In this document: piece after piece, positions 7,490 to 60,294 of the stretch | Position numbering within the stretch: the first letter of the stretch is position 1 | Layout of the letters: each line of letters begins with the position of its first letter | NCBI GenBank assembly: GCA_003577165.1 | Contig: QEUM01000011.1 | Coordinates: 1 to 64,000, forward strand | Direction of reading: 5' to 3' | Length of the DNA stretch: 64,000 bases | Source: Armatimonadota bacterium | GTDB lineage: Bacteria; Armatimonadota; Fimbriimonadia; Fimbriimonadales; ATM1 | Translations under genes and position numbers: made by a program | The notes under the pieces: generated by a model | Seen by the model: only the letters and a program-made list of their open reading frames with translations | What the model was told of the DNA's origin: nothing | Database searches by the model: none

Positions 7490-9049
7490 ATGCTCCTCGC
7501 GCTCACGGTTCTTATCGCACAGCAGTTGGGGCCCACTCTGCCGCCCTGGACATCCGAGCACATTCACGCCGTGAACCGGACGGTTCAATCTGCCCTTGCC
7601 GACGGCCGATTCGAAGAGGCGGCGAAGGCGCTCGCCACGTGGCCGGACGGCCGCATTGGATACAAGTTCGTGAAAGACGCCCCCCCCGAAGCGACCGCCC
7701 TCGGCGCTGCGGCGGAAAAGTTCTGGAGGGGGGCCTCTAACGGCGCGCTGCTTTTCGAGCGAAGTGAGGATGCGCTCATTGAAATCGAGTTCATCGAAAG
7801 CGCACCGGCGGGCGACCCGGAGCCGGTTTGGGAGAAAGGAAAGATCCTCGCCAGAATTCCACTGACATTTGGCACACAAGGTCAGCGATCCAGCGAGAAG
7901 TCGCTGCTTCATGGGGTCTTGCGCGCGTTCGGATTCGCCGCCGGCCTCGCCCCGTCTCACTATCGCGGGAACGTGATGGGGATCGACGACCGGCTGCCGT
8001 TCATCACCGAGCCGGAACTGCAGCCCAAAGAAAAGGAAGCGCTCGATCGTATCCTCGCCGCTCGTAAGCGACTCGCCGCCGCCACTTCTGATCGCGCGCG
8101 CATCATTGCGGCTGCTCCCAGGCTCGTCATCGAGCCGATTGAACTCGACGCCGGCAACGTGACGACAGGAATGGTCGCCAAGTATACGGTAACGATTCGC
8201 AACGCCGGAAACGCACCCGTCGAATTCGTCCCCGAGTTGACGTGCCGCTGCCTTTACCTCGACCCGATCCATGAACTCGCGCCGGGCGAGTCGAAGACCA
8301 TCGAACCGGGAATCGACACGAACGGAATTATCGGGCCGGTGCACAAGTCGATTCTCTTTCACACCAACGACCCTTCCGACCTGCATCAAGAGTTGAAGTT
8401 GCATGTCAACTCGGTTCCGGAATATCGAGTGCTGCCCGCAGACGTGATGAGGGTCACGCTCAGCGAAGTCGGCGCGACGAGCGCGCACTTCATCTTGTAT
8501 GCCACACCCGGCAACCCGATTCAGGTGAAGGAGGCGATCCCGTCTCGTCCGGGCCTCGAAGTCTCGATCGAACCGTGGGTGGGCGAAATACTCGATCCCC
8601 TCTATGACACTCAACCCGTGCGCAGGCTGGGCTACAAAGTGGTCGCGACGTTTCCGGCCGACTTTCCGACGGGCATCGACTGGGTTTCCATCGCGATCCG
8701 CACCGATTCGCGCAGGCAGCCGATCTACCAGGCGACGATGCAAGTCCAGAAGGGCATCGTCGCTCAGCCGAAATCGTTCTACTTCGGCGGCGTCGAGCAC
8801 GACAAAGAGGCGACGCGAAGCGTCGAGTTGAGCCACGGCTCGCAGAAGTTCTCCATCCTGTCGGCAAACGTCGAGGGAGGGCCGTTCACGGTCGCCTTCC
8901 AGAAACTCGACGACGACGGGAAGAAGTACAAGATCACGGTCACCTATAAGGGAAGCGAGCCCGGCGGGCTGGCGGGCAAGGTGATCTTGAAGACGGACCA
9001 CAAGGGGGGGGAGGAAATTGTGATTCCGATCGGCGGGACCGCAAAATGA
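7490..9049 (+). CDS. Secreted protein with degenerate zincin-like region and DUF1573 domains
   Basis: A 519-residue protein with a short hydrophobic N-terminus (LLALTVLIAQQLG). Residues 25-165 look like a matrixin-type metalloprotease remnant. The segment LLHGVLRAFGFAAGL (about 139-153) sits where HExxHxxGxxH would be, but the metal ligands after the first His are missing. Residues about 200-295 are a DUF1573 Ig-like domain (YTVTIRNAGNAPVEFVPELTCRCL, then LAPGESKTIEPGIDT and ILFHTNDP). Two further beta-domains follow, the last with GKVILKTDHKGGEEIVIPI. The stop overlaps the next gene by four bases (ATGA), so the two are probably co-translated. Confidence 0.7.
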   Translation: MLLALTVLIAQQLGPTLPPWTSEHIHAVNRTVQSALADGRFEEAAKALATWPDGRIGYKFVKDAPPEATALGAAAEKFWRGASNGALLFERSEDALIEIEFIESAPAGDPEPVWEKGKILARIPLTFGTQGQRSSEKSLLHGVLRAFGFAAGLAPSHYRGNVMGIDDRLPFITEPELQPKEKEALDRILAARKRLAAATSDRARIIAAAPRLVIEPIELDAGNVTTGMVAKYTVTIRNAGNAPVEFVPELTCRCLYLDPIHELAPGESKTIEPGIDTNGIIGPVHKSILFHTNDPSDLHQELKLHVNSVPEYRVLPADVMRVTLSEVGATSAHFILYATPGNPIQVKEAIPSRPGLEVSIEPWVGEILDPLYDTQPVRRLGYKVVATFPADFPTGIDWVSIAIRTDSRRQPIYQATMQVQKGIVAQPKSFYFGGVEHDKEATRSVELSHGSQKFSILSANVEGGPFTVAFQKLDDDGKKYKITVTYKGSEPGGLAGKVILKTDHKGGEEIVIPIGGTAK

Positions 9050-10275
9050 AGTCCCCACTCCGATTGCTGGCTCTCTGCGCAGTGCCTGCGGCCTTTCTTG
9101 CCTCACCCGACTCCGAACCGGACCTCACGGTATTGTTCACCGGGGACATCCGCGGGTACCTATCCCCGTGTGGCTGCAGCAAGCCGCAAATCGGCGGCCT
9201 GCTGCGGATGGCGTCGGTGATTCGCGGCCTGAAGTCCGCGCCGAACACCCTGTTCGTGGACCTGGGGAACTGGACTCAGGCGACGGGACGTCAGGACGAA
9301 CTCAAAGCCGACGCGATCGCCGAGACCTTTGCATCTCTCAAGCCAGACTATTTGAACGTTGGGCCGCTGGATCTCCAATTGAGCGAGGGACAGTTGGCCT
9401 CACTCGCCGAAGCGACGAAAGGCGCACTCGATTCCTCGAATGCGATCCTGCCGGGCGTGCTCGCAAACCGCGAGGGTCGCGACGTCGCCGGCAAGGTGTG
9501 GATACAGGGGCTTGTTCCGGACGGCGCGGCGCGCGCGACGGTGACCCCCCCCGCAACGGTCTTATCTCCGAGATCGGATCGTGCCCACATCGTGCTTTTC
9601 GCGGGACCGAAGGACGCGGCGTTTCGACTCGCGCGAAGCTTGGGCCCAGGTTCACTCTTGATCTACTCCAGTCAAGGCGACCCGACTCGAACGCCCGACA
9701 TCGTGGGGGGGGCGACGCTCGTATCTTTAGGGGACAAGGGGCGCTACGTTGGGAAGGCGACGCGAACGAACGGGAAGTGGGAGATCGCGTTCCTCGAACT
9801 CGGACCGGAACGCCCGGACGACCACGAGGCGACGACGGCGTATCGAAGCTATCTCAACCGCGTGGGCGAGGAGAGACTGCTCGCAGCGATGCCGCGACTT
9901 CAAAAGGGGACGCTGTTCGTTGGATCGGCGGTCTGCGGCGGGTGTCACGTCAAGGAATACAACGTTTGGCTAAAAACCGCGCATGCAAAGGCGCTCACAA
10001 CTTTGGAGAAGACCGGCAACGACAAAGACCCTGAGTGCGTCGGCTGTCACGTCGTGGGACTAACCTACCGCGAAGGTTTCATGGACAAGTCGAAGACACC
10101 GGACCTTGCGCACGTCGGCTGCGAAAGTTGCCACGGGGCGGGGGGTAAGCACGTCCGCAACGTCTCCGAGAGGGCGTCCGTTCATGCCGATGCGACTTCC
10201 TGCGCGAGTTGCCACGTTCCAGAGCACAGCCCAGGCTTCGACTTCCAGAAGTACTGGGAGAAGATCAAGCACTAG
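9046..10275 (+). CDS. Tetrahaem cytochrome c with N-terminal UshA/metallophosphatase-like domain
   Basis: A 409-residue exported protein (signal peptide about 1-20). Residues 27-270 resemble the UshA-like 5'-nucleotidase/metallophosphatase fold (VLFTGDIRGYLSPCGC, then PQIGGLLRMASVI), but the metal-binding set is incomplete. Residues 290-395 hold four haem c motifs: CGGCH (297-301), CVGCH (331-335), CESCH (359-363) and CASCH (386-390). Their layout is like the cytochrome c554 family. It overlaps the DUF1573 gene by four bases. A periplasmic electron-transfer role is likely; the substrate is unknown. The cytochrome maturation genes at 51096-56201 could supply its haem attachment. Confidence 0.8.
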   Translation: MKSPLRLLALCAVPAAFLASPDSEPDLTVLFTGDIRGYLSPCGCSKPQIGGLLRMASVIRGLKSAPNTLFVDLGNWTQATGRQDELKADAIAETFASLKPDYLNVGPLDLQLSEGQLASLAEATKGALDSSNAILPGVLANREGRDVAGKVWIQGLVPDGAARATVTPPATVLSPRSDRAHIVLFAGPKDAAFRLARSLGPGSLLIYSSQGDPTRTPDIVGGATLVSLGDKGRYVGKATRTNGKWEIAFLELGPERPDDHEATTAYRSYLNRVGEERLLAAMPRLQKGTLFVGSAVCGGCHVKEYNVWLKTAHAKALTTLEKTGNDKDPECVGCHVVGLTYREGFMDKSKTPDLAHVGCESCHGAGGKHVRNVSERASVHADATSCASCHVPEHSPGFDFQKYWEKIKH

Positions 10276-50175: not shown

Positions 50176-50736
50176 CTACCTCGTTCCCGGCTTCGTGATC
50201 GGAATCGCGGCCAGCCATTCCGGAACTTCGTCCGGAGCGTACGAAACCGCCTCCACGCGCACCGCGCTGTAGAACGGAACGCCGAAATCCGGAGGAGTTT
50301 CCGAACGATCGACGAGAACCGCGACTCCGCAGACTTCTGCGCCTGCGTCTCGGATCAGTTCCACCACTTCTCGAACGCTCGTGCCCGTCGTGAACACGTC
50401 GTCCACCACCAAGGCGCGCGTTCCTGCACTCAACTTCGCGCCACGTCTCAGCACGCGCTTTCCGTCCGCCCGCTCCACGTAGAGCGCGGGAAGGCCCAGC
50501 CTCCGCGCGACTTCGAACGCGATGATGATCCCCCCCGTCGTTGGTCCCACGACCAACTCCGCCCCCGAGTCGCGAAATCGGTCCGCGATCGAGCCGCAAA
50601 CTTCACTCAGCACGTCGGGGCGTTCGAGTATTCGAAACTTCTCGAAGTAGGTGTCGCTGTGCCGTCCGGAGGTCAGCAGGAAGTGCCCCTTGAGGACCGC
50701 CCCTGATTCCTCCATGAGTTTGAGAAGATCAGCCAT
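50176..50736 (-). CDS. pyrE: Orotate phosphoribosyltransferase
   Basis: A 186-residue enzyme making orotidine monophosphate from orotate and PRPP. The PRPP-binding loop is ALVVDDVFTTGTSVRE. Other family features are GHFLLTSGRHSDTYFEKFR and ELVVGPTTGGIIIAFEVAR. It overlaps panD by eight bases and is the last protein gene of the long minus-strand run that begins at the Rrf2 regulator. Confidence 0.95.
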   Translation of the reverse strand: MADLLKLMEESGAVLKGHFLLTSGRHSDTYFEKFRILERPDVLSEVCGSIADRFRDSGAELVVGPTTGGIIIAFEVARRLGLPALYVERADGKRVLRRGAKLSAGTRALVVDDVFTTGTSVREVVELIRDAGAEVCGVAVLVDRSETPPDFGVPFYSAVRVEAVSYAPDEVPEWLAAIPITKPGTR

Positions 50737-51091
50737 GTCGGCTATACGGCGTCATGTCGCGAACGATTGCGTTCTTCTCATCGAGCAGCACCATCTTCGG
50801 AACCACCGTTTCATCTGTGTAGACGAAGGCCGCAATGATGAGTCGGTCTCCGACGTTCACTCGCTTCGCGGCCGCTCCGTTGACGCCGATGATGCCCTCC
50901 TCGCCCTCGAAACAGTAAGTCGTAAACCTCTCTCCGTTCTCCACGTCCCACACGAACACGAACTCTCCGTTCGTCAATCGGACATGTTCCATCACTTTGC
51001 GGCAAATCTCAATGCTGCCGACGTATTCCGCGTTCGCGTACGACACGCGCGCGTGATGAATCTTCGCTTTCAACAGGTTGACGAGGCGCAT
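50729..51091 (-). CDS. panD: Aspartate 1-decarboxylase (pyruvoyl enzyme)
   Basis: A 120-residue pro-enzyme that makes beta-alanine for pantothenate. The self-cleavage site is Gly-Ser in NAEYVGSIEIC, giving the pyruvoyl cofactor at the Ser. Other motifs are GERFTTYCFEGEEGIIGVNGAAA and VGDRLIIAAFVYTD. ATG 51091 is used; the ORF continues upstream only into the ccmF gene. It starts five bases after ccmF and overlaps pyrE, so both are likely transcribed with the cytochrome maturation genes. Confidence 0.95.
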   Translation of the reverse strand: MRLVNLLKAKIHHARVSYANAEYVGSIEICRKVMEHVRLTNGEFVFVWDVENGERFTTYCFEGEEGIIGVNGAAAKRVNVGDRLIIAAFVYTDETVVPKMVLLDEKNAIVRDMTPYSRHG

Positions 51092-51095
51092 GGTC

Positions 51096-53474
51096 TTACT
51101 CGGCTGGGTGCCCGGGGTTCCGCTTGCGGCGCATTGCCGCAAATCCGCCGACAGTCATCATACCCGCGCCGATCCAAACGAGAATCGTCAGAGGCTTGTA
51201 GAACAGCTGCGTCGGGTACACAGGTTCCGACGGAAGCAGTGAAAATGAGGCTGTCTTCGTCGCGGCATCCAAACTGTCGAGCGCGATGACCATGTCGGAT
51301 GCGATCGCAGCGGAACGCTGACGAGTGCCGCGCTCTGTGATCTCGATCGCGGGCTCCGCCTCGATGAACTCGCCATCTGAAAAGGTCACCCTCACCCTCG
51401 CTCCGAACCTCGTGCCGACCGCGCCTGGCTCGCCCTGCTGAGTCGGTTCCAAGTATCGAATCAGCATCCCGTTCGATGCCTTCTCCTCGCCGGGCTTCAA
51501 CTGGATTCCCGTGTCGATTTCCAAAACGGGCTTGCCAATGACGTAATACAGGTCGTACAGAACGGTCCGGTAGATGTCCGGCCTCATCACCCAGTTGCCG
51601 TGCTTCTCGCTGAAATAGAGCACAGGTTCCAACCGCTTCGGAGGCCCTTCAGACGCCTGGAGCAGGAAGGGAAAACGATTGTCGTGCTGCGCGATTCGGT
51701 GAACGTCCTCCGCAGTCGGCGCATCGAGCAGCCTTGCCAGATACCGCCGCGACGATCCGATCACCAAACTCGCCTGCTTCACGCTCGTCACGAAATCTCG
51801 ATCCGTCTTCTCAAATGCCTTGGAGACTACGAGTCCCAATAGGAGTAGCGCAACGCCCGCATGCGTCACGTATGCACCGATCCCCCAGGCACCCGATCGC
51901 ACTCGCTCGAGAATGCGGATCAGATTCGCTGAAATTGAAAAGATCGTCACCCACGTCGAAGCAAACAGCACGAAGAGGAGCCACTTCGACATCCGCTGGA
52001 TCTCGACGTTGCCTTCGTTCCTCACCACAACGTCCGTCAGCCCGTTGCGCAAGAGGAAGAAGACGAGCAGGCTGAAAAGCAGCGCGGAGAGAAAGAAAGC
52101 GTTCGCCAACTGCTGGGTGCGCTTCGAGGAGGTCTTCGTCCAACCCAGGAATGGCGTCAATCCCATCAGGAACATCGCCGGGATGAAAGCGAATACTGCG
52201 ACACGGTTGTAAACATCCTCGCTCACCGCGGAGATGTTGCTGTCGCCTTCCACGACGCCGAGCATCGGAACCTTGAAACCGAAGAGGTGCGAGAAGAAGG
52301 GAAGCGACATTCCGATCGCCGCCATAATGCCGACCAAATAGAGCACCGACATCCCGATGGTCAATCCCTCTTGCCGGTGGCCGGCTTCCTTCGAGTTCAC
52401 ATCCGCGAGCGCCTTGCCTCGGGCCCAAATCACGCCCCAAACGACGCCCGTGAACGCAAGCGTTGCGACGACCAATCCGAGCAGCACGCCGTGCGCTCCT
52501 TGGTTCATCTCCGCAAAACTGTGCACGCTGACGTTCACCAACGCTCCGCTTCTCGTGAGATAGGTGCCGAACACGAACCAAAGGAACGGCAGAAGCGCAA
52601 GAACGAGCGCCGGCCGTCCCCAGCGGTTGCGATGCGCGCGAACGTAAAGCGCATGCACGAGCACAGCGCACGCGATGAAGGGAACCAGGCTTACGTTCTC
52701 AACCGGATCCCACGCCCAGAATCCCCCCCACCCAAGGGTCTCGTACGCCCACAGGCCTCCCATTACCAGGCCCACGCCGAGCATCGTCATCGAGAAGATA
52801 GCAAACGGCCGAAAACTCTGCACCCACGAGTCCCAATCCTTCGAAAAGGCAACGGAGGTCGCCCACGCGAATAGGCTCAACAGACTTCCGAATCCGATGA
52901 AGATCACCCAGGGGTGGATGACCATCCAGTAGTTCTCGAGCTGAGGGTTCAGACCGACGCCGTCGTTCAGCGCGAAGAGCCTCTGCTCTTCCGTGAGCTC
53001 GCTAAAGTCCAGGAGCTTGAACGGCGACTCATAGGCGGTGATCGCGAGCATCGCGGACAACGCGATCCCGGCGACCACAGAGAACCACCGACGATAGAGG
53101 CCCGTCTTCGGCGCGGCGAACATCGCGACGACCGCGCTCATCAGCGCCCATAGAAGAAAACTCCCTTCCTGCTTCGCCCACGCCGCGCTCAACCGGTACA
53201 TCGTCGGCATCCGGTTTTCGGTCGTCCCAGAAACGTAGTCGAATTGATACTGTTTCGTCAGCAGGAGGTAGATGAGGCAGCCCATCGTCGCAGCGACTGC
53301 CGCCGCCCCGAGAGTAAAGAGCCATCCGCCAAGGCGGCTCCGGCCCTCTTTCGCTCGAAACGCCCACACTGCCGCAGAACCGAGAAAGAGCGCGATCGCC
53401 GCGAAGACGAGGAACCGGCCGAGACTCCCCACGGCCATCCCCGCAGCCGATGGCTCCGTGATCAATTCGGGCAT
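51096..53474 (-). CDS. ccmF: CcmF-type cytochrome c haem lyase, copy 1
   Basis: A 792-residue polytopic protein (about 14 helices) of the CcmF/NrfE family, which attaches haem to apocytochromes. The WWD haem-handling motif is WGGFWAWDPVENVSLVPF. Conserved histidines are seen in MVIHPWVIFIGF and in SVHSFAEMNQGAHG, and the early AAWAKQEGSFLLW motif is present. A periplasmic C-terminal domain of about 180 residues follows the last-but-one helix. It lies six bases downstream of ccmE. A second ccmF precedes ccmE. Confidence 0.93.
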   Translation of the reverse strand: MPELITEPSAAGMAVGSLGRFLVFAAIALFLGSAAVWAFRAKEGRSRLGGWLFTLGAAAVAATMGCLIYLLLTKQYQFDYVSGTTENRMPTMYRLSAAWAKQEGSFLLWALMSAVVAMFAAPKTGLYRRWFSVVAGIALSAMLAITAYESPFKLLDFSELTEEQRLFALNDGVGLNPQLENYWMVIHPWVIFIGFGSLLSLFAWATSVAFSKDWDSWVQSFRPFAIFSMTMLGVGLVMGGLWAYETLGWGGFWAWDPVENVSLVPFIACAVLVHALYVRAHRNRWGRPALVLALLPFLWFVFGTYLTRSGALVNVSVHSFAEMNQGAHGVLLGLVVATLAFTGVVWGVIWARGKALADVNSKEAGHRQEGLTIGMSVLYLVGIMAAIGMSLPFFSHLFGFKVPMLGVVEGDSNISAVSEDVYNRVAVFAFIPAMFLMGLTPFLGWTKTSSKRTQQLANAFFLSALLFSLLVFFLLRNGLTDVVVRNEGNVEIQRMSKWLLFVLFASTWVTIFSISANLIRILERVRSGAWGIGAYVTHAGVALLLLGLVVSKAFEKTDRDFVTSVKQASLVIGSSRRYLARLLDAPTAEDVHRIAQHDNRFPFLLQASEGPPKRLEPVLYFSEKHGNWVMRPDIYRTVLYDLYYVIGKPVLEIDTGIQLKPGEEKASNGMLIRYLEPTQQGEPGAVGTRFGARVRVTFSDGEFIEAEPAIEITERGTRQRSAAIASDMVIALDSLDAATKTASFSLLPSEPVYPTQLFYKPLTILVWIGAGMMTVGGFAAMRRKRNPGHPAE
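52702..52733 (-). repeat. 32-bp identical segment shared by the two ccmF genes, copy 1
   Basis: Identical to 55402-55433. It encodes the centre of the WWD motif (G-G-F-W-A-W-D-P-V) in both genes, while flanking sequence differs. Confidence 0.85.
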
Positions 53475-53480
53475 CGCAGA

Positions 53481-53861
53481 CTAACCCTTGCTCGCCTCAG
53501 CGCTTTCGTACTTGCTCGGGCATTGCGTCTTGACGCCCGTCGCACGGAACTTGCCGTCCCGGTACGCGCCCTCGACCGAAGCCTTGGGGGCGCCGTCGAA
53601 ATTCGCAGGTTTCCCCGTCTCGCACACAACCGGCATCCGCTCTCCGAATTCATCCACCAGGACGAACTCGAAGCGGTTCGTCCTCAAATCGAGCCGCGCT
53701 GAGGCGTGGTCGATTTCGCCTGCCACGTGAACGACCTTGCCCGGCTGGGCTGCTGCCTCCGTCGCCGACACGTACGGCGTCGCGCTCGTCACGAAGGCAT
53801 ACACGCTCAGAGTGATGCCGACGACGATGACGGCTGCTGCGATAATGGGCCCGGGTTTCAC
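53481..53861 (-). CDS. ccmE: CcmE haem chaperone, cysteine-type (C-x3-Y)
   Basis: A 126-residue periplasmic haem chaperone with one N-terminal anchor helix (IIAAAVIVVGITLSVYAFV). The OB-fold (VVHVAGEIDHASARLD, FVLVDEFGERMPVVCE) is typical. The haem-binding site near the C-terminus is Cys114-Pro-Ser-Lys-Tyr118 instead of the usual H-x3-Y. This C-x3-Y form is known from archaea and some deltaproteobacteria (for example Desulfovibrio) and marks the variant System I pathway. It sits between two ccmF genes. No ccmA, B, C, D, G or H is visible in the window. Confidence 0.93.
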   Translation of the reverse strand: MKPGPIIAAAVIVVGITLSVYAFVTSATPYVSATEAAAQPGKVVHVAGEIDHASARLDLRTNRFEFVLVDEFGERMPVVCETGKPANFDGAPKASVEGAYRDGKFRATGVKTQCPSKYESAEASKG

Positions 53862-53876
53862 TTCGTAAAGACCATT

Positions 53877-56201
53877 TTAGTCCACCGGCCCGCTCTTCGG
53901 CTTCGCCGACACGAACGCCAAGCCGACTCCGACGGCCAGCAGGATGGCTCCGACCCAGACCAGCCGAGCCAGTGGCTTCTCATAAATCTCTACTACGACG
54001 TACGGCTCGATCGTGTTGACGGACACCACCGCAGCCCCGTCCGGCTTCACCCCGTCCAGCCGGACGTACATGTCCTCCCCCATCCTCTCGTCTTCGAACG
54101 AGGAGCCATCCGAGTTGTGCAACTTCGCCGGCGCCAGGTCGAAGGTCTGTCCATCGGCCGTGATCCGCAGCCGTACCGACTGCCGACCGGGATCGCCGTC
54201 CTGCAAGGCCCCTAAATGCTCAACTCGAATTTCGTTCCGCTCCACCGACTCGCCCGGTCGAACCTCAACCCCTCGAACGACTTCGTCGTCGGGGGCCGTC
54301 GCCGAAACGTACAAGTCCGAGAGCCCGCTGGTTCTGACGCTGGGCCGCGTCACGGGCATGATGTCCTCCTCCCGACCCAGCGGCAAGTGATAGTAGGCGA
54401 CCGGCCGGAATGGCATCGCCGTTCCCTTCGGCGTATGAATCTCGAGGGCAAGAGTGGACTCCGGCGTCATCAGTTGCTCGATGGACGGGTTCTCGGTCAT
54501 CCGCACCGTGTACTCGCCCGACGCGAGTTCGATCCGCGCCTCCTTCGTCGGATAGAGCAGACCTCGGTCCTTCGTCTCGAATCCACGCGAAATCAACAGC
54601 CCCAATAGCAGAATCGAAATTCCCATGTGCGCCACGTAGCCGCCTAACCGTCCCGCGTGCGCCTTCATCCGAGACCAACCCCGCACGGCGTTCGCAGACA
54701 TCGCAAACAGAGTCGCTGCGGAAAGCAAGACCACCAACGTCGCGCTGAGCGGCTGCACGGAAAACGTGGCCTGCAGCAGCCCCCCCCAAGCGAGGTAAGC
54801 GAGAATGCAGCCCGTGATGACGAGGGCGAACAGCACACATCCGATGAGCGTGCCTGAAAACCTCCGCCCCCCCTCCTTCCAACCGGCCTGAGGCGCGATC
54901 GCCATCAGCGCGAGCGCCACAAGCAGTGGCAGCCAAGTCATTTGGTTGTAGTCGCCTTCGTCCACGGTCTTTCGAACCCCGGAGAACTGGGCAGCCAAGA
55001 ACGGAACCGACATTCCGATCGCGGCGAGGCCGGAAAGAACCCAAAGGGAAACAACGCCGATCGTGATGGCGCGTGACCTCGGCTCCGATGCTGGACTTCG
55101 TTCGCCTTCCGGTTGTCGCAATCCACCGACGACCCCGTGCACCACAACGACCGCAACGATTGCGCCGAGGACGAAACCCAGCAGGAGTTTGTGAGCGACC
55201 GGGTCCATCTGAGCGAAACTGTGTACGGACACATTCGCCAGCTGTCCGCTTCGGGTCAGAAACGTCCCGTATGCAAACAGAGCGAACGGAAGACCAGCCA
55301 ACACGAGATTCGCGCGCTTCCAGTGGCCGCGCCAGTGCTGCAGATAAAGCCCGTGCACCAGAGCGCCCACCGCTAAGAACGGAACGAGGCTCGTGTTCTC
55401 CACCGGATCCCACGCCCAGAATCCCCCCCACCCGAGGGTCTCATACGCCCACAATCCGCCCATGACGAGGCCGACGCCCAGGAAGAAAAGCGCGACGAAC
55501 GCGACCTTTCGCCCCTGCGCGAGCCACGTGGAGAAGTCACCGGCGATCGCCGACGCTCCGGACAGCGCGAAAAGGGGCAGCAGCGAACCGAATCCGAGGA
55601 AGATCACCCACGGGTGGATGATCATCCAGTAGTTCACGAGCACTGGATTGAGACCCGCGCCATCCGGCGGAACGACCATCGTTTGACCTGGGGCGAGATA
55701 CGGCTTTAGGTCGTCCGCGATCTCGATGAGACGAAATGGAGACTCGTAAGCGAGGATCGCCGCACAAGCCGCAAGCGGAATCGCTGCAATCGCGATGTAT
55801 CGCGGCAGCAGGGAGGCGTTTCGGGGCATGAACAGAAGGCACATCAGCGCGCTCGAGGCGAGCCAGAGCGTAAAGCTCCCTTCCTGCGCAGCCCACGCGG
55901 CCCCAATCCGGTACGGAAGGCTGAGCGAGTTGTCCGTGTTCTGGAACACGTAGGCAAACTCATACTGCCTGCCAACAAGGAGCGAAATCAGCGCTGCGAG
56001 AGCGGCGATGGCGAACAGCGACCCAACCTTAAAAAGAGCCTTCGCGACCGCGCTTCCCCGCGTGCGGCTTCCGATCACGAAAATGAACGACAGAATCCAA
56101 GCCAGGACGGACCCGATCACGAGGGCCGTCCCGGCCCAGCCCACCGCAAGCCAACCGGAACTCGGCTCTACGAGCAGACTTTCGATCGATGGGGATTCCA
56201 T
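53877..56201 (-). CDS. ccmF: CcmF-type cytochrome c haem lyase, copy 2
   Basis: A 774-residue paralog of the gene at 51096 with the same architecture: AAWAAQEGSFTLW, IIHPWVIFLGFGSLLPLFA, the WWD motif WGGFWAWDPVENTSLVPF, and SVHSFAQMDPVAHK. The two proteins differ widely outside the membrane helices, particularly in the C-terminal periplasmic domain. They may serve different apocytochromes or haem types, or act as a heterodimer. It starts 65 bases after the DUF2231 cytochrome gene. Confidence 0.93.
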   Translation of the reverse strand: MESPSIESLLVEPSSGWLAVGWAGTALVIGSVLAWILSFIFVIGSRTRGSAVAKALFKVGSLFAIAALAALISLLVGRQYEFAYVFQNTDNSLSLPYRIGAAWAAQEGSFTLWLASSALMCLLFMPRNASLLPRYIAIAAIPLAACAAILAYESPFRLIEIADDLKPYLAPGQTMVVPPDGAGLNPVLVNYWMIIHPWVIFLGFGSLLPLFALSGASAIAGDFSTWLAQGRKVAFVALFFLGVGLVMGGLWAYETLGWGGFWAWDPVENTSLVPFLAVGALVHGLYLQHWRGHWKRANLVLAGLPFALFAYGTFLTRSGQLANVSVHSFAQMDPVAHKLLLGFVLGAIVAVVVVHGVVGGLRQPEGERSPASEPRSRAITIGVVSLWVLSGLAAIGMSVPFLAAQFSGVRKTVDEGDYNQMTWLPLLVALALMAIAPQAGWKEGGRRFSGTLIGCVLFALVITGCILAYLAWGGLLQATFSVQPLSATLVVLLSAATLFAMSANAVRGWSRMKAHAGRLGGYVAHMGISILLLGLLISRGFETKDRGLLYPTKEARIELASGEYTVRMTENPSIEQLMTPESTLALEIHTPKGTAMPFRPVAYYHLPLGREEDIMPVTRPSVRTSGLSDLYVSATAPDDEVVRGVEVRPGESVERNEIRVEHLGALQDGDPGRQSVRLRITADGQTFDLAPAKLHNSDGSSFEDERMGEDMYVRLDGVKPDGAAVVSVNTIEPYVVVEIYEKPLARLVWVGAILLAVGVGLAFVSAKPKSGPVD
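55402..55433 (-). repeat. 32-bp identical segment shared by the two ccmF genes, copy 2
   Basis: Identical to 52702-52733 and positioned at the same place in the WWD-encoding region of the second ccmF gene. Confidence 0.85.
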
Positions 56202-56266
56202 GACTGGATGTAGGCGATGCCGATTGCGCCGAGAATCAGTCTACTCCAGTGCGAATCCGTCCGAGG

Positions 56267-57268
56267 CTACTCTCCGTACACGAACACGCCGCCCAAGTGA
56301 CCGGCCCAGGAAATCAGAATGAGTCCGATGACCGCCAACAGCCAGTAGACCAATCGCTGAAACACGTGCATGTCTTCGTGGCGGTGTACGCGCATCGAGA
56401 CCATCATCCACATCACGAACGCGCCGGTGACCGCAAACAGGAAGTGCTCCGTAATCACGCCCTTGAACGGGATTTTCATGTAGATCATTGCGAGATAGCC
56501 TGTGACGACGCCGATGACTGCGCTCAAGGCCGCCAATACCAGGTTGTACCAACCGGCCCACAGAAGTTCATGTTTCTTCGTCAGCAGGCCCCACAGATCG
56601 AGAAGCAGGCCGGCGATGAACAGAGCGATAGGAAAGTGCACTACCGCGGGATGAAATCCGTTTTTGGGAATTAGCCTCTTTGGAGGTTCAGGCTCCTCGA
56701 CCGGCTCTTCTTCGGCTTGCTCGGTCGGTTCCGACGTCGGCGGCGCCGCCTCCTCTGCTCCGGGCTGGGGTTGACCTTCGCCCCCCCCTTCCGTAGTCGC
56801 GGGCTCCGTCTTGCCTGTGGGCGGTTTTGTCGTTCCTGTCGCGGGAGGTTTCGCGCCTGAGCCACTTCCCGATGCGGGAGGCTTCGCGTCTCCGGCTGCA
56901 GGGGGGGGCTTCGGCGTGCCGGCGGGTTTGTCTTTGCTGTCGCCGGGGGCCTTGTCCGCTCTTAGTTCTTCGGCGTTCGTGAACCCGTCTCCGTCGGCGT
57001 CCATCGCCTCGATCTTCTTCATGATCGCCGCCGTAAGGCTAGTCTCATCGGCTTCCGCCATCGCCACGGCCAACTGCTTTCCGTACGAGTTCATGCCGTA
57101 ATCCGAATCGGATACGTGACAGATTCCGCAGGATCGTTCCGCGAGCGAACCGCTATCGGAAATCTTGTAGGTCAGGAGAATCTTCTCAAGGAAGTCGCTC
57201 TTCGCAGTCGCCGATGTAACGGAGAAGAGGAAGGCTATCGGAACGAGCACGGCTGAGGCTCTACGCAT
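56267..57268 (-). CDS. Haem c / EF-hand / DUF2231 membrane protein
   Basis: A 333-residue multidomain protein: signal peptide (1-22), one haem c motif (Cys47-Gly-Ile-Cys-His51), an EF-hand-like loop (DADGDGFTNAEE, about 90-101), a Pro/Gly/Thr-rich linker (about 112-195), and a C-terminal DUF2231-type membrane domain (about 205-333, starting FHPAVVHFPIALF, four helices). DUF2231 domains often carry histidines that may bind haem b. The haem and EF-hand part is paralogous to the small cytochrome at 58576. It could pass electrons between the membrane and the periplasm. Confidence 0.85.
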   Translation of the reverse strand: MRRASAVLVPIAFLFSVTSATAKSDFLEKILLTYKISDSGSLAERSCGICHVSDSDYGMNSYGKQLAVAMAEADETSLTAAIMKKIEAMDADGDGFTNAEELRADKAPGDSKDKPAGTPKPPPAAGDAKPPASGSGSGAKPPATGTTKPPTGKTEPATTEGGGEGQPQPGAEEAAPPTSEPTEQAEEEPVEEPEPPKRLIPKNGFHPAVVHFPIALFIAGLLLDLWGLLTKKHELLWAGWYNLVLAALSAVIGVVTGYLAMIYMKIPFKGVITEHFLFAVTGAFVMWMMVSMRVHRHEDMHVFQRLVYWLLAVIGLILISWAGHLGGVFVYGE

Positions 57269-57338
57269 TTTCTGTTACTCCATACGAGGCTGTTAGGGTG
57301 GCGGAGGGCAACGAGTGCCCTCCGCCGATCAGGCGATC

Positions 57339-58541
57339 TCAGAACATCCAGTTTAGTTCGAAAGTGAACTTGTTGGTCGTTGCTCCGCCTGAGACCTTCG
57401 ACCATGTCTGCTCGAAGACCATTCTGCCAACTTTGTTGAGTCTGTACGACAGTCCGATCGCGCCGCCGGTGATCTCCGGCGAGAGGTCGGGATCGAAGAA
57501 GTCGTACCGGCCATAGAAGGCAGTCGTGGGACTGGCAAGGAACGCAGCCTCAAGGTAATAGCCGTGCGGATTGCGAGAACCGCCGGCCGCGAGGTCATTC
57601 TGACCAGAGAACCACCCGCCGCTGACTTCGAAGTTGTCACGAACGAGGCTCGCCATCACTCCGAATCGCGTGAACTCATCGCCAAAGGCAGGGGGTCCCG
57701 TTACGGGAAACTCGCCTGAGTAGCCGTAAACCCCAAACGAACTGCCGAACTCATCGAACAGGAACTCGAGCGAGCCCCAGATGTCCTTCATCTCGTTGTT
57801 CTCAGCGATGTTAGGCCGGGCGTTGCCGCCGCCGCCATTCGTGATGCCGAACTCGCCGAACAAGTTTTCCTTTGTCTTGAACCCGAACGCAACCCCGTAG
57901 AACCTGTCGCGAGGAGTGAACAAGTTGCCTCCACCGACATTGTCGTTGAGAATGCGGGGCCGACTGATGGAAACCCGTCCGCCCGTGCTCGCAGTGTGAA
58001 TGATGCGCGGCGTATAGGAACCCGCTCGCGCAAACCAGTAGTTCTCGCCCTGCGGGTTGCTGTTGTACTGCAAGTACGCTTCTGCTAACTTGCTTCTGAC
58101 TGCCGTATCGAGCTGGCCGCCGCCACTGGTGGCTGCTTTGCCCCGCTCGTGCAGGTAGATCTCGAAGAAGTAACTGAAGTTCTCGTAGAGTGGGCCGCCC
58201 GAATAGATGGACAGCGCTTCGACGTCGAACCTGGTCTCAGGCGTTTCGTCAGGGCTCTGCTCAAACCGGAACTTGCTGGCGAACGACATGTACTGCCACC
58301 AGCTCAGGTCTTCTGCATCGTCGATGTTAGTTGCGTCGGGCGTTCGCTGCCCCCGCCATAGGAAGTCTCGACCGAATTTCGTCAATCGGTTCGTGGAGCC
58401 AAAGTGGCATGAACTGCAGTCCATGTCGTATTTTCGTGACCATGCTGGGATTGCTTCCGACTTCGTCGGTAGCCACAGGCACGTCACGACGAGCGCAACG
58501 CAGCAAATCGCGTGCGCCATGTGAGTGATCCTAATCCTCAT
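57339..58541 (-). CDS. Cyc2-like cytochrome-porin fusion (outer membrane)
   Basis: A 400-residue exported protein. The signal peptide ends near SEA30. A monohaem cytochrome segment follows directly: AIPAWSRKYDMDCSSCHFG with C42-x2-C45-H46, then TNRLTKFGRDFLWRGQRT. Residues about 85-400 have alternating polar/hydrophobic strands typical of a 16-strand porin barrel, ending in the outer-membrane signature FTFELNWMF with terminal Phe. This arrangement (short N-terminal haem c and barrel in one chain) is that of Cyc2-type iron-oxidising or electron-conduit proteins. It lies between two monohaem cytochrome genes. Confidence 0.85.
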   Translation of the reverse strand: MRIRITHMAHAICCVALVVTCLWLPTKSEAIPAWSRKYDMDCSSCHFGSTNRLTKFGRDFLWRGQRTPDATNIDDAEDLSWWQYMSFASKFRFEQSPDETPETRFDVEALSIYSGGPLYENFSYFFEIYLHERGKAATSGGGQLDTAVRSKLAEAYLQYNSNPQGENYWFARAGSYTPRIIHTASTGGRVSISRPRILNDNVGGGNLFTPRDRFYGVAFGFKTKENLFGEFGITNGGGGNARPNIAENNEMKDIWGSLEFLFDEFGSSFGVYGYSGEFPVTGPPAFGDEFTRFGVMASLVRDNFEVSGGWFSGQNDLAAGGSRNPHGYYLEAAFLASPTTAFYGRYDFFDPDLSPEITGGAIGLSYRLNKVGRMVFEQTWSKVSGGATTNKFTFELNWMF

Positions 58542-58575
58542 GTTTGTCCTCCTGGATTACGTGATCGCGATCCGA

Positions 58576-58920
58576 TCACCTCTCGGTCGTAGGGACGCTC
58601 TTCGCGTCACCCGGCAATTTGTCGGCGCGGATCTCCGCGATGTTGCTCGCTCCGTCCTTGTCGGAATCCTTTGCCTCGACTTTCTTCAACACTTCAGCAG
58701 TCAGCGCCTTCGATCCGGCAAGCGCATGCTTGAGGTCCTGACCGTAGGAATTGAGTTTTGCGGTCTGGCCAACGTGGCAGACTGCGCACTTTGCTTTGCC
58801 CAGCGTTGATGTCTTGGCAACGTTGTAAGTGGTAGCGAACACCTTCACGAAACCGGTGAGTGCCATCGCACTCGACGCAATGCTAACAGCCAAAAGCGCA
58901 AGAAGCGCTTTCCGTTTCAT
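58576..58920 (-). CDS. Small periplasmic monohaem cytochrome c with EF-hand-like loop
   Basis: A 114-residue exported protein (signal about 1-20) with haem motif C45-A-V-C48-H49, LNSYGQDLKHAL, and an EF-hand-like loop DSDKDGASNIAE (about 85-96) followed by IRADKLPGD. The order C-x2-C-H, N-S-Y-G, K-K-x-E-A, D-x-D-x-D-G, R-A-D-K-x-P-G-D is shared with the DUF2231 cytochrome at 56267, so one derives from the other. An AGGAGG lies close to the ATG, which also overlaps the Rrf2 stop (ATGA). It is a candidate soluble carrier between the porin cytochrome and the membrane. Confidence 0.88.
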   Translation of the reverse strand: MKRKALLALLAVSIASSAMALTGFVKVFATTYNVAKTSTLGKAKCAVCHVGQTAKLNSYGQDLKHALAGSKALTAEVLKKVEAKDSDKDGASNIAEIRADKLPGDAKSVPTTER

Positions 58921-59450
58921 TTTTTGCCTCCTAATGGCTTTGGGTTGGACGCGGTCGGGGCGTTTGTGCCTCCGCGTCGACTCGGTTTCTTCCCTATTCC
59001 CACCTTTGCAGTTCGGCTAGATCGCCCGGCTTCAACTTGACGTCGAACGATGTCGTCCAAGGTGATGGTGGATAAGGACTCTCTCGTATGATCTCGCAGC
59101 GCCAGCCACATGTCGTGCAAGGCGCACGGCGAATTCGAATTGCACATCCGCTCCCGATCCATGAAGCACCAGGGCTTCTCGAACGGTCCGTCGTACGACT
59201 CGACAATCTCGAGCAGGCTAATTTCGTTTGCAGGGCGAGCGATCGTATAACCGCGCTCGGCGCCGCGACGTACCCTAAGGAGCGCGGCCTTCGCTAAGCG
59301 AGTGAGGATGTTTCCCGCAAACTGCGGAGGGATGTTCGCGGATCGAGCGATCTCGTCCGCCTGGACGACCCTCCCCTCCCTCTCGGCAATCCACTGCATC
59401 GCGGAGATCGCGTATTCGCATCCTCTCGTGATCTGCAGCAGGTTTGCCAT
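58917..59450 (-). CDS. Rrf2-family transcriptional regulator with Fe-S-type cysteine triad
   Basis: A 177-residue winged-HTH regulator. Family motifs are CEYAISAMQWIAE, IARSANIPPQFAGNILTRLAKAALL and RRGAERGYTIARPANEISLLEIVE. Three cysteines, C95, C103 and C109, have spacing C-x7-C-x5-C, as I recall for the iron-responsive RirA; IscR and NsrR differ slightly. An Fe-S cluster sensing iron, NO or redox is therefore likely. The Lys/Arg-rich tail (about 145-177) is longer than usual. Start 59450 is chosen over TTG 59465. It is the first gene of the cytochrome operon and a perfect dyad lies 12 bases upstream. Confidence 0.88.
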   Translation of the reverse strand: MANLLQITRGCEYAISAMQWIAEREGRVVQADEIARSANIPPQFAGNILTRLAKAALLRVRRGAERGYTIARPANEISLLEIVESYDGPFEKPWCFMDRERMCNSNSPCALHDMWLALRDHTRESLSTITLDDIVRRQVEAGRSSRTAKVGIGKKPSRRGGTNAPTASNPKPLGGKK

Positions 59451-59461
59451 CTTCAACTGCC

Positions 59462-59486
59462 TCAATCGAGTGATTGGCTCGATTGA
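59462..59486 (-). promoter_or_regulatory. Perfect 9-bp inverted repeat: probable Rrf2 operator
   Basis: TCAATCGAG (59462-59470) and CTCGATTGA (59478-59486) are exact inverted repeats with a 7-base spacer. The dyad lies just downstream of the predicted -10 box and 12 bases before the regulator's ATG. This is a typical place for autorepression of the Rrf2 operon. Confidence 0.65.
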
Positions 59487-59492
59487 CTTGAT

Positions 59493-59520
59493 TCTGTAGC
59501 CGCAAACCTGCCCATGTCAA
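59493..59520 (-). promoter_or_regulatory. Promoter of the Rrf2-cytochrome operon
   Basis: On the minus strand TTGACA (59520-59515) and TACAGA (59498-59493) are separated by 16 bases. The -35 is perfect and the -10 weak, as expected for a regulated promoter. The predicted start site falls at the edge of the dyad at 59462-59486. Confidence 0.5.
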
Positions 59521-59664: not shown

Positions 59665-60294
59665 ATGAAGACCAAAACCCTGCTCGTCGCTTCGGCCGTC
59701 GCACTCGGCGGCGCGGCCGCGGTCCTCTGGGCTCAGAACAACCAGCCTCAACCCAAGCCGATCCCCTCCCCCGACCAGGTGAATCCCGGCACCATGCTCC
59801 TCAAAACCCAGCTGGGCAGTTTCCAACTGGAAGGCGAAGGAACCGTCGAGATGACCTTCCGAGGCACCTTGCTGATCGAGCGACTCGACGGCGCGGTGAC
59901 CGTCGTCGGCCAGAACAAGCCCGACGACATCCGGCTCGAGTTTGAGGGCTATGATCGCAAGGTCTGGTTCGGCCGAGGCAAAGCCGTGATTCGCGGCAAG
60001 TTCCGCCGCCTGCAGTGGTTCGGTGGCGACCTCAACGCGGTTTGGCGAGGAAAAGGCCTAGCCTACGTCTTCGGCGAGTACGACCCCGTGACTAAGTCCA
60101 GCGGCGTCTGCAAAGTGGACGACCTTCCCTGGAGGCCCTGGTTCACCACAGGCCAGCAGTTCTGGGTGCCCAAGGAACTCGAACCCCTCTACGTGACGGG
60201 GCAGATCAAGCCAGAGGGCTCAGGCGGCAGCGACGAAACGCCGGAGGAAGCCCCGCCGACGACCGACCCGTCGTCGGACGACGGCATCCAGTAG
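59665..60294 (+). CDS. Secreted protein of unknown function
   Basis: A 209-residue protein with a signal peptide (TKTLLVASAVALGGAAAVLWAQ). The mature part (about 25-175) is beta-rich with repeated short strands (GTVEMTFRGTLLIE, DGAVTVVG, GKAVIRGKFRRLQWFGGDLNAVWRGKGLAYVFGEYDP), suggesting a single beta-sandwich or barrel. The tail is acidic and Pro/Thr/Ser-rich. I recognise no family. It is divergent from the Rrf2 regulator and close to the convergent HhH gene. Confidence 0.6.
   Translation: MKTKTLLVASAVALGGAAAVLWAQNNQPQPKPIPSPDQVNPGTMLLKTQLGSFQLEGEGTVEMTFRGTLLIERLDGAVTVVGQNKPDDIRLEFEGYDRKVWFGRGKAVIRGKFRRLQWFGGDLNAVWRGKGLAYVFGEYDPVTKSSGVCKVDDLPWRPWFTTGQQFWVPKELEPLYVTGQIKPEGSGGSDETPEEAPPTTDPSSDDGIQ

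Follow-up and report, generated by a model that had tools for sequence, protein, structure and literature searches.

We analyzed a 64-kb window from an Armatimonadota bacterium (contig C11, bases 1-64000; genome 2.75 Mb, 97.5% complete), and conclude that it probably carries an electron-transfer operon that includes its own haem-loading genes. Nine co-directional genes on the minus strand, from 59450 down to 50176, lie behind a promoter and a dyad, the whole spanning 59520-50176. In order they encode an Rrf2-family regulator, a monohaem cytochrome, a fused cytochrome-porin (the barrel), a protein joining a haem c domain to a DUF2231 domain, CcmF1, CcmE, CcmF2, PanD and PyrE (Table 1). In the sequence, successive genes are separated by -4, 34, 70, 65, 15, 6, 4 and -8 bases. 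Pfam and NCBIfam assign Rrf2, DUF2231, both CcmF, CcmE, PanD and PyrE; for the monohaem cytochrome and the barrel no Pfam family scored above cut-off. An earlier note on this DNA had described the dyad, the promoter and the closely spaced or overlapping co-directional genes, and all are present on the minus strand. Its description of the genes was right apart from a hairpin at 57300-57326 that it missed and two starts: Rrf2 more likely begins at ATG 59450 than at TTG 59465, and PanD at 51091.

The same note proposed that the cell couples an outer-membrane electron conduit to the capacity to mature it. Consistent with this, the barrel, the cytochromes, the only CcmE found in the genome and both CcmF copies found in it sit in one run behind Rrf2, and the pairing of a conduit with a CcmF paralogue recurs in relatives. 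The gene content, the overlaps, the conserved domains and motifs and the recurrence of sub-blocks can be read directly from the sequences.

The barrel protein has 400 residues, a hydrophobic N-terminal helix and CSSCH at residues 42-46. As expected of a Cyc2, it has a signal peptide, a single CXXCH near the N-terminus and more than 365 residues. An AlphaFold model built with 12 homologues predicts 16 strands (mean predicted local distance difference test score, pLDDT, 74). The top PDB matches of this model in VIA-align are OprO/OprP (Z 22.6, 297-300 residues aligned, root-mean-square deviation 3.5), with other 16-strand porins trailing by just 1-3 Z. OprO/OprP are also the structural relatives of Cyc2 (PMC8406198). 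A PDB sequence search with the barrel profile returned antibody chance matches only, and a plasmid search gave no match. Homologues extend to WOR-1, Nitrospinae, Elusimicrobia and Eisenbacteria, several adjoining monohaem cytochromes, and the family is present in HRbin16. At two Elusimicrobia loci (L160, L164) the same barrel family adjoins a decahaem cytochrome and a large porin-like protein, an MtrAB-like conduit. A second, standalone Cyc2-like protein (ATPQFSREF...CITCH...PKLNAFG) is encoded at L103:5494-6615 (G000 C22) beside a MerR-like regulator and carries PXL, as in the published signature of Cyc2.

To place the window's gene order we compared 291 genomes of the phylum. An old block in the family and order, CcmE-CcmF-PanD, is found at 12 of 18 relatives' loci, nine of which also have PyrE, with the divergent gene (59665) opposite; several of the 18 loci end early at contig ends. 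Judged against these loci, Rrf2, the monohaem cytochrome, the barrel, the haem c-DUF2231 protein and CcmF1 are inserted between the divergent gene and ccmE. The divergent gene (59665-60294) encodes a secreted protein of unknown family, conserved across much of the order opposite either ccmE or inserted genes. In G066, of the same family, the same place holds monohaem-tetrahaem-FeS-NrfD-DUF2231 protein-ccmE-ccmF-panD-pyrE as a single run. The tetrahaem-FeS-NrfD genes of the window's genome sit at C19, and the G066 run ties this NrfD module to the genes in the window. G136 has an Rrf2 homologue (53%) with the same ATGA overlap into a monohaem gene, followed by tetrahaem-FeS-NrfD genes. Rrf2 homologues also stand at the front of FeS-NrfD-molybdoprotein genes (G173) or alongside an oxidase/SCO-like cluster (f3). 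The barrel of G176 (62%) has a monohaem gene ahead of it, at a contig edge.

A ccm gene (ccmF and/or ccmE) is in the same cluster at 10 of 16 relatives' loci with a close homologue of the DUF2231-cytochrome. CcmF adjoins monohaem and/or DUF2231 genes in eleven members of the order; nine of these also encode an MtrA-like protein with nine haem motifs plus a CX4CH, a porin-like protein and a multihaem protein. Pfam gives the porin-like proteins little backing, so calling them MtrB-like is based on size, position and signal peptide. A further such conduit cluster in G066 carries its second CcmF, and family members without the monohaem gene have one CcmF only. The CX4CH (CW-x-x-G-CH) is kept in the MtrA-like proteins of all nine complete related clusters and might be served by the neighbouring CcmF clade. 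With nine CXXCH and one CX4CH, the MtrA-like proteins at L104, L105, L135, L136, L139, L140, L142, L147 and L148 are decahaem. Near a conduit and ccmABC in G144, L105:5831-7642 encodes seven c-type haem motifs fused to a cytochrome b561-type membrane domain, which makes the fusion a candidate for the quinol oxidase of that conduit.

The haem c-DUF2231 protein has conserved histidines in its DUF2231 domain (His206, 211, 275, 297 and 324). Our guess is that these five would suit a b-type haem. In the part of the literature covered we found nothing relevant on DUF2231 with a cytochrome.

CcmF1 retains WWD and, aligned to the Thermus CcmF structure 6zmq, the four histidines that we take to be haem ligands. 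In the order, conduit-linked CcmF fall together in a single clade (100/100), separate from the panD-linked copies, and CcmF1 groups within the clade of its own family (100/100). Approximately unbiased (AU) tests reject a shared origin of CcmF1 with the conduit-linked clade (p 1.9e-6) and its pairing with the second CcmF of G066 (p 1e-4). They do not reject CcmF1 as sister to CcmF2 (p 0.12) or a position for it outside every single-copy CcmF of the family (p 0.135); CcmF1 is on a long branch. From the trees and AU tests, a CcmF copy would have come beside electron-conduit genes at least twice, separately, if the long branch does not mislead. We offer tentatively a wider proposal, which goes beyond the reach of the earlier note: Armatimonadota may have added an extra CcmF to outer-membrane conduit operons at least twice independently, once MtrAB-type and once Cyc2-like. 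The window's copy would then serve cytochromes with canonical CXXCH sites, and induction of the conduit would bring haem-attachment capacity with it.

The rest of the maturation set is less distinctive. CcmE ends in CPSKY, that is, CXXXY, and no CcmH was matched at E<=1 in this genome. With a CXXXY CcmE, CcmABC and CcmF present and no CcmH match, the set is by gene content the already described variant System I, which is common in the phylum. The variant CcmE is not special to this module: CcmE matches occur in 192 of the 291 genomes, and CPSKY in the CcmE of all 17 relatives inspected. The maturation part downstream of CcmF1 is ordinary for the phylum.

The promoter is the only sigma-70-like match on both strands of 10 kb. 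A single match is not above chance (shuffles 2.2 ± 1.3); what gives this one weight is its position, together with the identical CTTGACA element ahead of the Rrf2 homologues in G136 and G173. The dyad is unique in the genome at 0 mismatches; two imperfect matches elsewhere are both intragenic, the one with 2 mismatches inside a transporter gene. A genome-wide regulon search with the dyad gave no second credible site, and therefore we claim no wider regulon. The regulator has C-x7-C-x5-C-x2-H, the three conserved cysteines and nearby histidine of Fe-S Rrf2 members, as do the G136 and G173 homologues. We take this spacing to be like that of RirA. All NCBIfam equivalog scores against named members (IscR, RirA, NsrR, SUF regulator) were below cut-offs, and the SUF-linked Rrf2 is a separate gene at C21.

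Table 1. Positions, strands and supporting evidence for the elements of the gene run in the window
Feature	Position	Strand	Basis or remark
Sigma-70-like promoter, TTGACA-18-CAGAAT (TACAGAAT)	59491..59520	-	consensus scan
Perfect 9-7-9 dyad, TCAATCGAG-N7-CTCGATTGA, 25 bp	59462..59486	.	downstream of -10; presumed operator
Rrf2-family regulator, C-x7-C-x5-C-x2-H	58917..59450	-	PF02082, 106 bits; closest homologue G136, 53%
Secreted monohaem cytochrome c (CAVCH), EF-hand-like D-x-D-x-D-G	58576..58920	-	ATGA 4-base overlap with Rrf2
Cyc2-like fused cytochrome-porin: signal peptide, CSSCH, predicted 16-stranded barrel	57339..58541	-	motifs, predicted fold
G+C-rich 11-bp hairpin, without T run	57300..57326	-	sequence, folding
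CGICH cytochrome c domain, EF-hand-like, Pro-rich linker, DUF2231 membrane domain	56267..57268	-	domain match
CcmF1 (extra CcmF), full length	53877..56201	-	domain match, motifs, trees
CcmE, CXXXY type (CPSKY)	53481..53861	-	domain match
CcmF2, orthologue of relatives' panD-linked CcmF	51096..53474	-	trees, synteny
panD, aspartate decarboxylase; conserved neighbour outside conduit	50729..51091	-	domain match, synteny
pyrE, orotate phosphoribosyltransferase; conserved neighbour outside conduit	50176..50736	-	NCBIfam, synteny

We infer the following regulation, locations, electron path and role for CcmF1. The Rrf2 protein, probably with an Fe-S cluster, would repress from the dyad overlapping the transcription start, and repression would be lifted when iron, oxygen or nitric oxide alters or destroys the cluster. 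The barrel would form an outer-membrane pore with a single haem where it opens to the periplasm, and could swap electrons with a dissolved donor or acceptor outside (the precedent is Fe2+), and the monohaem cytochrome would act as periplasmic shuttle. The DUF2231 protein, probably with the tetrahaem/Fe-S/NrfD complex encoded on another contig, would connect to the quinone pool. This pool would in turn join Alternative Complex III and a haem-copper oxidase; genes for an Alternative Complex III-like complex and a haem-copper oxidase, an aerobic chain read from open reading frames (ORFs), are at C6. CcmF1 with CcmE would boost haem-attachment capacity while these cytochromes are made.

Several observations weigh against this reading. 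The complete order was seen in only one of the 291 phylum genomes, although Rrf2-monohaem, monohaem-barrel, and, next to MtrA/MtrB-like conduits, monohaem with DUF2231 and a paralogous CcmF do recur. The barrel is solitary in several relatives, so the company of these genes is not required and the whole order is one lineage's arrangement. In most relatives ccmE-ccmF-panD-pyrE occurs without any cytochromes, and ccmA, ccmB and ccmC are unlinked, on contig C1 (read from ORFs). G136 and G173 do not share the operator sequence, though the promoter and some dyad sit at the same place. The earlier note's Fe-S-type regulator is borne out by the cysteine/histidine pattern of the gene; that this protein controls the module, and in response to what signal, we infer. 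The published haem consensus of Cyc2 is AXPXFAR[QK][TY] upstream, CXXCH, and PXL downstream (PMC8406198), and the barrel matches it only partly (AIPAWSRKY / CSSCH / NRL), two fixed upstream positions differing; hence we call it Cyc2-like and not Cyc2. Finally, the hairpin splits the cytochrome from the maturation genes and may give two expression segments. The coupling proposed in the earlier note is thus qualified by the old block, by ccmABC being elsewhere and by a strong hairpin between the halves.

The hairpin bears most directly on the strongest alternative, that there are two units. One, Rrf2-monohaem-barrel, would stop at the hairpin. The other, an operon for maturation and housekeeping, would be mainly constitutive and would run from the DUF2231 protein through CcmF1, CcmE, CcmF2 and PanD to PyrE. 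We regard this as a serious possibility, though not the favored one. The 70-base gap that parts the barrel gene from the DUF2231 gene has a folding energy of -28.5 kcal/mol (z -5.8), and stems like this one number about four per 177 kb of sequence examined from this genome. The frequent occurrence of the downstream block without cytochromes fits as well, as does the biosynthetic nature of panD and pyrE, which are required under most conditions. However, the hairpin is without a T run, and a scan of both strands of the 10 kb, for the sigma-70 consensus only, showed no second promoter-like site. In relatives the DUF2231 protein and CcmF also cluster with the monohaem cytochrome. The hairpin is possibly a processing or attenuation point, or an uncommon terminator.

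A special case of the electron-transfer operon is Cyc2-type iron oxidation, in which the barrel would oxidize dissolved Fe2+ at the surface with Rrf2 as an iron sensor. The 16-strand barrel with one N-terminal haem, the OprO/OprP-like fold and a recognizable haem signature are all as in Cyc2, and an aerobic respiratory chain is encoded. A cluster 3 Cyc2 is annotated in an armatimonad metagenome-assembled genome of class HRBIN16 (PMC9671151), a class that by name holds HRbin16, and the Rrf2 regulator CtaR lies beside the Acidithiobacillus ferrooxidans rus operon (PMC2754497). Set against this, the haem signature has W in place of F, S in place of A and NRL in place of PXL, with A-W-x-R common to the whole barrel clade, including its Elusimicrobia and Nitrospinae members. 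The likeness to Cyc2 is one of consensus and predicted fold, and function is uncertain even in Cyc2 cluster 3. We consider iron oxidation somewhat unlikely. Electron export, with the conduit shedding electrons to outside acceptors at low oxygen in the manner of MtrCAB, seems less likely again: MtrA-like multihaem proteins, porin-like proteins and lipoprotein multihaem cytochromes do occur in related clusters that share the monohaem and DUF2231 proteins, but the MtrA homologues MtoA and PioA also run inward (PMC9671151) and no multihaem surface protein is encoded at the window locus. That the extra CcmF is a specialized lyase for an unusual haem site, like NrfE/SirE, is improbable, for although dedicated lyases adjoin their substrates (PMC6976685) and the related MtrA-like proteins keep their CX4CH, the three window cytochromes have canonical CXXCH only and CcmF1 falls outside those clusters' CcmF clade (AU p 1.9e-6).

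If an electron-transfer operon with its own haem-loading genes is correct, it suggests that haem attachment can limit the building of a surface conduit and that lineages answer with the conduit's own CcmF. One one-haem pore, one shuttle and one regulator also make a compact setting for testing Cyc2-like function beyond the known iron oxidizers, and haem c-DUF2231 proteins, so far undescribed, are tied to surface-conduit electron transfer. Elsewhere in the same 64-kb stretch a called gene (9046-10275) encodes 409 residues with four CXXCH motifs.

The pairing of surface conduits with spare haem-attachment genes has no description in the literature searched; with partial coverage, no paper was found joining MtrB, CcmF and a porin-cytochrome cluster. 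The nearest known systems each share part of it. In variant System I the CcmE is of the CXXXY type and CcmH is missing (Allen et al. 2006, cited by PMC9084895), and this genome is similar, with a CPSKY CcmE, CcmA, CcmB, CcmC and CcmF and no CcmH match. In Methanosarcina haem motifs are assigned to CcmF2 and a secondary role to CcmF1 (PMC9084895), whereas both CcmF of the window carry full haem motifs. Like NrfEFG and SirEFG, where the dedicated lyases NrfE and SirE are encoded next to their substrates (PMC6976685), the window has a CcmF paralogue beside its presumed cytochrome substrates. Unlike them, its cytochromes are without an atypical haem motif and no CcmH-like partner was found in the genome. 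Similar to MtrCAB and MtoAB, the related clusters pair an MtrA-like decahaem protein, a porin-like protein and a multihaem lipoprotein with monohaem and DUF2231 proteins, whereas the window has one fused one-haem protein, not a separate porin and multihaem cytochrome. CtaR, of the Rrf2 family, adjoins the rus iron-oxidation operon of A. ferrooxidans (PMC2754497), and the window's Rrf2 is likewise encoded with respiratory electron-transfer genes, a likeness of gene context and not of sequence; CtaR differs in lying beside haem A and oxidase biogenesis genes. Cyc2 of Mariprofundus PV-1 (Keffer et al. 2021, PMC8406198) departs from the window's barrel in its haem signature, the two being likened by consensus and predicted fold, but like the barrel it has a signal peptide, a single N-terminal CXXCH, a 16-strand OprO/OprP-like barrel and more than 365 residues.

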